A DNA stretch of 64,000 nt, taken from SAR202 cluster bacterium AC-647-P02_OGT_505m (GTDB taxonomy: Bacteria; Chloroflexota; Dehalococcoidia; Lucifugimonadales; UBA826). The DNA lies in contig VEXB01000004.1 of the NCBI GenBank assembly GCA_009391195.1, positions 1 to 64,000 on the forward strand. The letters are read 5' to 3'. Below the pieces are notes generated by a model. That model was not told the DNA's origin and searched no databases. It worked only from the letters and a program-made list of their open reading frames with translations. Below, piece after piece: positions 37,834 to 40,051 of this stretch. Each line of letters starts with the position of its first letter. Positions within the stretch are counted from its first letter, which is position 1. The position numbers and the translations under genes were made by a program.

Positions 37834-38463
37834 CTATGGACGTTTGGAGTAGGTAATTCTTCCCAAAGAATGAACACCAGGTCTTTCTATCAGGCTTTGT
37901 TGTTCTGACAGTCGGTTGTCTGAAATTATATTGTCGTGAAGTTCTTGCATTAGAGCAAAACTTTCTGTTATATGAGTAATTCGTACACTGGTTATTTGCC
38001 CTCCAACCGGTGTGCTAATGTTATATGCAAAGTTGAGGTCCACATCAGACATCCAGTCAGACATTAAGTCAATAAAAGCTTGTAACTTTCCCATCTTTGG
38101 CTGGAAGAACCGTCTCATGATGTACTTGGGATCGAACTCTTTTAAGGCATCGATGTTGGTGGCCCTAACTCTTGATAGAGACATGTTTTCCTGTCTCGAT
38201 AATCCAGAAAGTTCACTTCTTTCCTTTAGGGCGGCCATATTGTTTCCGAATATGGCGTCCATAAGGGCGTCTACTTCGTTTGCATCAGGTAGCGGAACTA
38301 CGGCGGTGACTTTCGTGGACTCCAGATGAGCATTGGGAGGAGAGATAGTGACGCTGACCAGTCCAGGGACCCCTAGAGACTCCATGGATTTTTGTACCCC
38401 TTCAATAACTTCTGCTTCTTTCCCTGGATTTGGTGTGCGATAAGTGTTTAGAAAGTAGGACAT
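37834..38463 (-). CDS. Two-domain protein of unknown function (possible dimeric alpha-beta barrel)
   Basis: I do not recognise this 209-residue protein by name. It appears to consist of two similar halves: MSYFLNTYRTPNPGKEAEVIEGVQKSM and, about 115 residues later, YIMRRFFQPKMGKLQAFIDLMSDWM, each followed by strands and a helix near a run of small residues. This is what a fused pair of ferredoxin-like (ABM-type) domains looks like. GGAGGTCATA-ATG fixes the start at 38463. It is alone between a plus-strand oxidase and metF. Confidence 0.45.
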   Translation of the reverse strand: MSYFLNTYRTPNPGKEAEVIEGVQKSMESLGVPGLVSVTISPPNAHLESTKVTAVVPLPDANEVDALMDAIFGNNMAALKERSELSGLSRQENMSLSRVRATNIDALKEFDPKYIMRRFFQPKMGKLQAFIDLMSDWMSDVDLNFAYNISTPVGGQITSVRITHITESFALMQELHDNIISDNRLSEQQSLIERPGVHSLGRITYSKRP

Positions 38464-38581
38464 TATGACCTCCATATAACTGAAATTAATTGATTTGGGC
38501 CATATTACGATAAAAGGTAATAGATAGTAACCAACAATAGGATTTTGGTGTAACTATGGGATTATCGGAATGGAAATGCTA

Positions 38582-39505
38582 TTAAAGTCTGTTAGTCTTG
38601 GACAATCCGCTGTCTTCTACGAGCTCCTTTACTGCTTCTTCCCACCTGTAGGCCATGATATGAACACCTGCAACCCCTTGAATAGATTTGAGGTCATCTA
38701 TTGCCTCTTTAGAAATCTCCAAGCCAATTTGGGCTTGTTCTTTTTCAGGATAATGGTCCATGCGTTCAATAATCCGGTCAGGAATGGAAACTCCGGCAAT
38801 ATTATCTCTGAGCCATTTCGCCATCTTTGAGGATTTCAATGGGCCGAGACCTACCAACACAGGGGGTGGGTTTCCGTCGCTAAGTTCAACTAATTTTTCT
38901 GAGAAACGCTTCATTACTCCTATGTCAAAACAAAATTGTGTTTGGAAGAAAGATGCTCCAGCCTTCCATTTTTTGATAGTTCTGTGAGGCCTATAGCTGT
39001 GAGGAGGCGCAAATGGGTTCGCTGCAGCCCCAAGAAATAATCTCGGGTTAGGGGTGATTTTTCTCCCGCTCATGAAACTGCCAGTCTTGTCCATGTTATT
39101 TAACGCAGCCAGCATGCTTATGGAATCTAGATCGAAGACCGGTTTGGCATCGGGGTGATCCCCGGCTGTCACTCCATCTCCAGTAATACAAAAAATATTA
39201 CGAATACCCAAAGAATGAGCCCCCAACACATCCCCTTGTATAGCTATTCGATTTCGATCTCTGGCCGAGATCTGCATGACAGGTTCAATATCGTTATCTA
39301 AGAGAATATATGCTGCTGCGAGGCTTGAGAAGTGAGGAATGGCACTGGTTGCATCAGTCACATTTAAAGCGTCGCAATAGGGTGATAGTTTTAAAGCTGT
39401 TTCTACTAATTCATCTTTTTCTGAAGAATCGGGTAGCGTAAGTTCTGCTGTTACTGCAAAAGAGCCGGAATCCAGGGTTCTATGAAGTTGAGAAATCATA
39501 TTCAT
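38582..39505 (-). CDS. Methylenetetrahydrofolate reductase (MetF-like)
   Basis: The 307-residue TIM-barrel flavoprotein has the MTHFR pattern: SFAVTAELTLPDSSEKDELVETA at the N-terminus, CDALNVTDATSAIPHFSSLAAA near residue 44, PVMQISARDRNRIAIQGDVLGAHSLGIRNIFCITGD near residue 75-110 and AGASFFQTQFCFD near residue 182. The product is 5-methyl-THF or, running in reverse, methylene-THF. It follows the zinc/iron-sulfur MTHFR C-terminal-type protein by 6 nt, so the pair forms an operon reminiscent of metV-metF. Confidence 0.88.
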   Translation of the reverse strand: MNMISQLHRTLDSGSFAVTAELTLPDSSEKDELVETALKLSPYCDALNVTDATSAIPHFSSLAAAYILLDNDIEPVMQISARDRNRIAIQGDVLGAHSLGIRNIFCITGDGVTAGDHPDAKPVFDLDSISMLAALNNMDKTGSFMSGRKITPNPRLFLGAAANPFAPPHSYRPHRTIKKWKAGASFFQTQFCFDIGVMKRFSEKLVELSDGNPPPVLVGLGPLKSSKMAKWLRDNIAGVSIPDRIIERMDHYPEKEQAQIGLEISKEAIDDLKSIQGVAGVHIMAYRWEEAVKELVEDSGLSKTNRL

Positions 39506-39511
39506 AAGTTA

Positions 39512-40051
39512 TCAACGTGATTGATTAATCCAGGCGGAGCTGCCTTTAAGCCGACGATCCAGCGGTTTTTGAATGATTTCTATTTCATGTGAAAAAACAC
39601 GCATTTTATTGGAGTTTTCCCAGGCAGTAACCCATACGCATGTCATTTTGGGGTCAAGCTCACATGAACCATCAGTTCTGACTCCTCCACAAGGTCCGTT
39701 TCGTATTTCCTTTGGACAGCCCATGGGGCAAGACATTCCCGTTTCATGGAGGATACATTGACCACACATTTGGCAGCCGAAGATAGGCTTTTTGGTTACC
39801 CATTCAAACTTAACAAATAGCAGTCTGATGACCCTGTTGTCACCGTATTTTTCAGCTATCCCACCCAAAACCTTGGAGGAGACTAGATAAAGTACTTCGA
39901 GTAGTTTGACCAATTTGACGCTCTCAGACTCTGAAAAACAATATACTCTGATCTGTTCCAATATTCTCGCATAAAATGAATTTGTGAAATGAAGTTCTTT
40001 TATACAGAGGAAAATATGTGTAGATTTAGGGAGTATTGTTGCGAGTACCAA
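39512..40051 (-). CDS. MetV-like (MTHFR C-terminal family) cysteine-rich protein
   Basis: The C-terminal half of this 179-residue ORF is the cysteine-rich MTHFR_C/MetV-type domain: IFGCQMCGQCILHETGMSCPMGCPKEIRNGPCGGV near residues 91-124, then CELDPKMTCVWVTAWE. Eight or more cysteines could bind zinc or iron-sulfur clusters. The first about 30 residues are poorly supported, since no good ribosome site was found for the track start, and the true start may be internal. In acetogens MetV partners MetF for methylene-THF reduction; here the next gene is MetF-like. Confidence 0.8.
   Translation of the reverse strand: MVLATILPKSTHIFLCIKELHFTNSFYARILEQIRVYCFSESESVKLVKLLEVLYLVSSKVLGGIAEKYGDNRVIRLLFVKFEWVTKKPIFGCQMCGQCILHETGMSCPMGCPKEIRNGPCGGVRTDGSCELDPKMTCVWVTAWENSNKMRVFSHEIEIIQKPLDRRLKGSSAWINQSR

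Follow-up and report, generated by a model that had tools for sequence, protein, structure and literature searches.

Identification of a metV–metF gene pair

The window analysed here is a stretch of 64,000 nucleotides from the SAR202 cluster bacterium AC-647-P02_OGT_505m (contig VEXB01000004.1), and it carries on its minus strand two neighbouring genes, with metV upstream of metF:

39512..39913, minus strand: metV-like gene, short form, 133 aa, TTG start (PF12225, 84–85 bits)
39506..39511, minus strand: metV–metF intergenic gap, 6 nt (from the sequence)
38582..39505, minus strand: methylenetetrahydrofolate reductase gene assigned to the metF2 type, 307 aa (PF02219, 95 bits; tree position; active-site columns)

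An initial annotation had read a MetV-MetF-like pair from the sequence, and profile matches bear this out. The upstream protein matches PF12225, the MetV/MTHFR C-terminal domain, at 84–85 bits (cut-off 23) and contains all three of the cysteine motifs noted at the time (CQMCGQC, CPMGCPK and NGPCGG), and the downstream protein matches PF02219 at 95 bits over residues 7–300, covering nearly the whole model. The metV stop ends at 39512 and the metF ATG lies at 39505; the 6-nt gap between the genes suggests that they would share a transcript and be translationally coupled. The metV frame had been drawn up to a TTG at 40051 (179 aa), which proved over-long. In a genome of the same genus (G001), no start codon comes between the upstream stop and the TTG that corresponds to 39913, the DNA upstream of TTG 39913 differs between the window and this congener by an indel, and MetV homologues start at about the same place; metV was therefore taken to encode 133 aa and to span 39512–39913. 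Downstream of metF, a 213-aa ORF (37834–38475, minus strand) that gave no Pfam match lies in a region that appears conserved in the congener.

MetV and MetF are linked across phyla

The window genome (G000; 1.37 Mb in 57 contigs) is 55.7% complete, which weakens any absence from it, and the congener G001 (87% complete) was used as a second look. Distribution was assessed in samples of 60 genomes of the SAR202 order, 16 genomes of the window's family and 201 genomes of the phylum Chloroflexota, and by a MetV profile search over 84,980 species genomes, in which tblastn confirmed at least 580 coding stretches.

PF12225 was present in 15 of the 60 SAR202-order genomes, and in 14 of these 15 the gene is adjoined by a PF02219 gene, the exception (G055) being at a contig end. 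When neighbours were recorded by tblastn, across phyla, for the best 80 of the at least 580 MetV loci, MetF was adjacent to MetV in 74. Adjacency at these two frequencies shows that the pairing is not due to chance. The two proteins are also found fused, as MetV-MetF in some Chloroflexota (L214, L215) and as MetF-MetV in other Chloroflexota (L216) and in Acinetobacter (L022). The adjacency and the fusions in either order argue strongly that MetV and MetF act together, and the window pair very probably constitutes a two-subunit methylenetetrahydrofolate reductase. Within the window's family the distribution of PF12225 is patchy (9/16 genomes), and it was detected in 57 of the 201 genomes of the phylum. 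One Anaerolineae locus (L202) holds three MetV-MetF pairs in ~7 kb.

The MetV cysteines and the predicted cofactor

The window MetV has eight cysteines (C47, C50, C53, C62, C66, C75, C84 and C92, numbered from TTG 39913), and all eight align with cysteines in the C-terminal domain of Acetoanaerobium noterae MetV; an alignment with MetV was what the initial annotation had wished to see checked. Seven of the eight are invariant among 36 short MetVs and C47 is replaced by serine in one of these (L164); C47, C50, C62 and C66 formed part of the search patterns, so the unbiased count covers C53, C75, C84 and C92 only. The MetV of Clostridium ljungdahlii shares the NGPCGG domain, and the MetVF heterodimer of that species holds 7.4 Fe, has two [4Fe-4S] clusters predicted for it and makes no use of NAD(P)H (PMC8515935; PMC8760232). 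Because it is homologous to this MetV, the window MetV probably binds iron–sulfur clusters as well.

It could be argued instead that MetV is a structural zinc-binding subunit of an ordinary NAD(P)H-dependent MTHFR, with no electron relay. Structural data leave room for such a reading: no PF12225 homologue was found in the PDB by profile search, a single-sequence search returned only repeat-protein artefacts, and the cysteine region of MetV was modelled by AlphaFold with too little confidence for a judgement (pLDDT mostly <50). However, the iron content and cofactor preference of the C. ljungdahlii enzyme (PMC8515935), the invariance of seven cysteines in 36 homologues and the presence of all eight in the acetogen protein make a zinc-binding role highly improbable. 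The cofactor and the electron partner of the MetV domain are open to direct test.

The window MetF belongs to a MetV-linked clade

A tree of 90 MetFs resolved into four clean groups, namely MetV-linked MetFs (SH-aLRT 93), MetV-less SAR202 MetFs (98), the E. coli type (100) and a divergent lipA-linked type (99). The window MetF falls inside the MetV-linked group together with its family (99). This group, for which SH-aLRT values of 93–94 provide moderate support, leaves out the E. coli-type and FolD-linked MetFs, and its members, tied to short MetVs, span Chloroflexota, Proteobacteria, Actinomycetota and Acidobacteriota. The window protein retains Glu21, Asp110 and Gln190 at the MTHFR catalytic Glu/Asp/Gln columns and scores 52.9 bits against TIGR00676 (cut-off 293.7). 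An ordinary stand-alone MetF of the E. coli type was rejected as a candidate, the tree placing that type on a separate branch with a support of 100.

Several other MTHFR-related genes were encountered in SAR202 genomes. In other SAR202 families, MetV-less MetF genes lie between or beside folD and acpS (L035, L036, L038, L039, L042, L044 and L046), and these MetFs are the nearest relatives of acetogen MetF within the tree set. In all genomes of the window's family that were examined, a divergent MTHFR-like protein of ~290 aa is encoded between lipA and a zinc-ribbon/EtfB gene pair (L104:1880-2740 on G001:C55, L105, L106, L107, L110 and L073, with a more distant version in L108); its catalytic Glu column is occupied by Asp, and it could serve these cells as their biosynthetic MTHFR. 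In SAR202, beside metF genes that belong to two different MetF subfamilies, lies a gene for a 416–418-aa double 4Fe-4S protein (L050:2385-3635 and L056:7992-9248) that, by eye, resembles reductive-dehalogenase/QueG-type proteins.

The pair differs from acetogen MetVF

The features that define the type II MetVF of acetogens include FMN on MetF, two [4Fe-4S] clusters on MetV and ferredoxin rather than NAD(P)H as the donor. The window pair is like this type, as found in C. ljungdahlii and A. noterae (L212), in its gene order, its C-terminal PF12225 domain and its eight aligned cysteines, and the window MetF is 39% identical to that of Acetoanaerobium, all of which would be in keeping with a MetVF of the Wood–Ljungdahl pathway. 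However, Acetoanaerobium MetV is 225 aa long (full-length proteins are ~210–225 aa) and has an N-terminal half with further cysteines, whereas the 133-aa window MetV lacks this cysteine-rich half. Acetogen MetF, when added to the tree, fell outside the MetV-linked group that holds the window MetF (SH-aLRT 94 in this tree), a placement that is unsure because it concerns a long branch and a single acetogen, Acetoanaerobium. Moreover, the Acetoanaerobium ORFs form an array that by eye resembles a Wood–Ljungdahl operon (CODH-, CooC-, Fhs- and FchA-like, MetV, MetF, Lpd-like), whereas there are no Wood–Ljungdahl genes near the window pair and no CODH/ACS genes within the window. Elsewhere in the Chloroflexota, PF12225 matches of ~111–131 bits come from frames of ~216–300 aa that encode long, acetogen-like MetVs, and those of ~88–100 bits come from short or long (fused) frames; at 84–85 bits the window MetV belongs with the second set and apart from the first. 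With no N-terminal MetV half and a MetF of another clade, the acetogen type was rejected and has next to no probability of being correct. Thus, the original remark that metV precedes metF as in acetogens holds for the gene order and the C-terminal domain but not for the type.

Short MetVs encoded directly upstream of MetFs of the same clade are found in aerobic bacteria, including Sinorhizobium meliloti (pSymB), Paracoccus aminovorans (plasmid IV) and Azoarcus sp. KH32C, with ~50–60% identity to the window protein in the MetV domain and 46–48% in MetF. As judged from sequence, the window pair is of this corrinoid-linked short-MetV/MetF2 type and not of the acetogen type, because the N-terminal MetV half is missing, the MetF clade is separate and corrinoid methyltransferase genes are frequent neighbours. 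MetV-MetF2 is a common and widespread bacterial enzyme type for the passage of methyl groups between vitamin B12 proteins and folate, of which the window pair is a real but ordinary case.

Corrinoid methyl-transfer genes accompany MetV-MetF in relatives

Among the best 80 of the at least 580 MetV loci, the neighbours included MtgC (38/80), RACo (32/80), MtgD (30/80), DUF1638 (22/80) and MttB (14/80). In the aerobic bacteria named above the pair sits in an MtgC-DUF1638-MetV-MetF-MtgD-RACo cluster, often with MttB, and proteobacterial clusters are annotated with MttB/MtgB, a corrinoid protein, DUF1638, a methyl-THF:cobalamin methyltransferase and an ASKHA (RACo) protein. One Azoarcus cluster is flanked by glycine betaine transporter genes, and on one Paracoccaceae plasmid MetV-MetF lies beside folD and glyA instead. 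Corrinoid methyltransferase genes also adjoin the pair in the SAR202 relatives G016, G026, G038 and G055. In two of these, G026 and G038, MtgC and RACo flank the pair inside a corrinoid operon that further encodes a PF13769-like protein, BHMT/MtgE, a ~224-aa protein, one or more MtaA/CmuA-like proteins and a pterin methyltransferase; nearly the same gene set is present in an Acidobacteriota MAG.

In contrast, the window pair stands alone, with no C1 gene in operon with it in the window, and the hub genes are on other contigs. A corrinoid operon without MetVF, conserved in SAR202, lies on contig C2 of the window genome, and an MtgD-like gene (47% identical) lies on contig C1:

G000 contig C2 (L114:4923-10854): operon encoding a PF13769 protein, a BHMT-like protein, a 224-aa protein, an MtaA/CmuA-like methyltransferase, a corrinoid protein and RACo

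The methyltransferase of this operon passes the NCBIfam MtaA/CmuA cut-off (256 versus 235 bits), and among PDB entries it comes closest to methylcobalamin:CoM methyltransferase; the 224-aa protein had no Pfam or NCBIfam match. Most components of a corrinoid methyl hub are thus present in the window genome, which has MtgC, MtgD-like, MtgE/BHMT-like and RACo activator proteins in addition to the MtaA/CmuA-like methyltransferase, together with FolD; the MtgC, MtgD, MtgE and activator assignments are by family and homology, with scores below the NCBIfam equivalog cut-offs. MttB (PF06253), the glycine betaine demethylase, was found in neither G000 (56% complete) nor G001 (87%), and the same holds for MetE, for long MetH and for a GcvT fusion of the DMGDH/sarcosine-oxidase type, the GCV_T matches in these genomes being limited to a GcvT-size protein and a second, weaker one. 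Formate-THF ligase was not found in G000 and is present in G001 and relatives. Hence, the C1 genes that the initial annotation had suggested looking for are present in part. FolD was recovered from the window genome, as were the MtgC/D/E-like proteins and RACo, but MttB and formate-THF ligase were not.

Direction of the reaction and origin of the methyl groups

In the model that we favour, MetF2 would bind flavin and folate and interconvert 5-methyl-THF and 5,10-methylene-THF, and the small MetV would relay electrons through iron–sulfur clusters between the flavin and a carrier, so that the enzyme would not be tied to NAD(P)H. The SAR202 MetVF would then join a corrinoid methyl-transfer hub encoded elsewhere, with the MtaA/CmuA-like methyltransferase, MtgC, the MtgD-like pterin methyltransferase, the MtgE/BHMT-like homocysteine methyltransferase and RACo as its members, to the pool of folate-bound C1 units (FolD, formate-THF ligase). 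Methyl groups supplied by the hub would pass from methyl-THF through methylene-THF to formate, and we lean slightly towards this oxidative direction being the main one.

Precedents for MetF paralogues with such a role come from two systems. In the MtgBCDE glycine betaine system of Ruegeria pomeroyi, MetF2 (SPO1862) is a MetF paralogue whose gene neighbours a corrinoid/pterin methyltransferase system used for both demethylation and methionine synthesis (PMC12478193). It is the most induced protein on betaine, choline and carnitine and the proposed oxidiser of methyl-THF; a MetV partner is not named in that study (PMC12478193). The system differs from G000 and G001 in that MtgB/MttB was not found in these genomes, and an MtaA/CmuA-like protein is present in the hub operon instead. 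In chloromethane degradation by Methylobacterium, MetF2, which in strain CM4 has 25% identity to E. coli MetF, is essential for methyl-THF oxidation and works with a methyltransferase of the MtaA/CmuA family (PMC4949252, PMC3621897); metF2 is essential for growth on chloromethane, and the chromosomal metF is no substitute (PMC4949252). Here CmuA is fused, whereas G000 has separate MtaA-like and corrinoid proteins. No MetV was seen on the Methylobacterium plasmid at the threshold used, and because the CM4 chloromethane plasmid is absent among the plasmid MetV matches, it is a precedent for MetF2 without a shown MetV.

The same genes could serve methionine synthesis, with MetVF working as a reductase that supplies methyl-THF to a split corrinoid methionine synthase (MtgD, MtgC, MtgE, RACo) and without any catabolism. 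Such a role is possible because the split synthase is encoded: in the window genome BHMT/MtgE, MtgC and RACo share one operon, an MtgD homologue is present, and neither long MetH nor MetE accompanies them. Moreover, in G026 and G038 the pair shares its operon with MtgE, MetVF is the only MTHFR found in G038, and the fused MetF-PF12225 protein of Acinetobacter is encoded near a methionine synthase gene. On the other hand, the 7 of 16 family genomes that lack MetVF still have the split synthase genes, the divergent MTHFR-like protein occurs in the family genomes examined, also in those without MetVF, and the nearest relatives with a studied function, the MetF2 proteins, have a catabolic role and occur together with another MetF (PMC12478193). 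An accessory role fits the distribution, because the pair is patchy in a family in which the split synthase genes are near-universal. We therefore regard a purely biosynthetic MetVF as a serious possibility, but not the favoured one.

With regard to the methyl source, G000 encodes no methyl donor enzyme whose substrate is known. The oxidation of methyl-THF, proposed at the outset in connection with the demethylation of methylated osmolytes, agrees with the corrinoid clusters of the aerobic homologues and with the MetF2 precedents, but the MttB and GcvT-fusion genes for the osmolyte steps were not found in G000 or G001. Nor could the pair be connected to the sarcosine-oxidase-like and betaine-transport genes with which it had been thought to fit, since these (DAO and ProXVW) lie 6–22 kb away and share no operon with it. 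The osmolyte-demethylation idea is thus only partly supported for the window genome, and glycine betaine itself is an unlikely methyl source there. Literature searches returned nothing on SAR202 and folate methyltransferases, and transporter transcripts only on SAR202 and glycine betaine. Elsewhere in the window's family MttB is present in G009 and G012, and in G012 (contig C2, L112) the gene for an MttB homologue comes immediately after that for a GcvT-containing oxidoreductase, the two likely forming a betaine catabolic pair that is not present in G000.

A more specific and tentative proposal is that the SAR202 MetVF is the oxidative exit of the hub, in which the MtaA/CmuA-like methyltransferase, and not MttB, would demethylate a marine methyl compound, the methyl group passing either to methionine (through MtgE) or to formate with a gain of energy (through MtgD and MetVF). 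The MetV domain is most familiar from acetogens, which are anaerobes, but the at least 580 coding stretches show that it also occurs widely in a short form. The pair puts the abundant, mostly uncultured SAR202 Chloroflexota in the company of aerobic bacteria able to link B12-bound methyl groups to folate. The finding points to a methyl donor behind the conserved SAR202 corrinoid operon.
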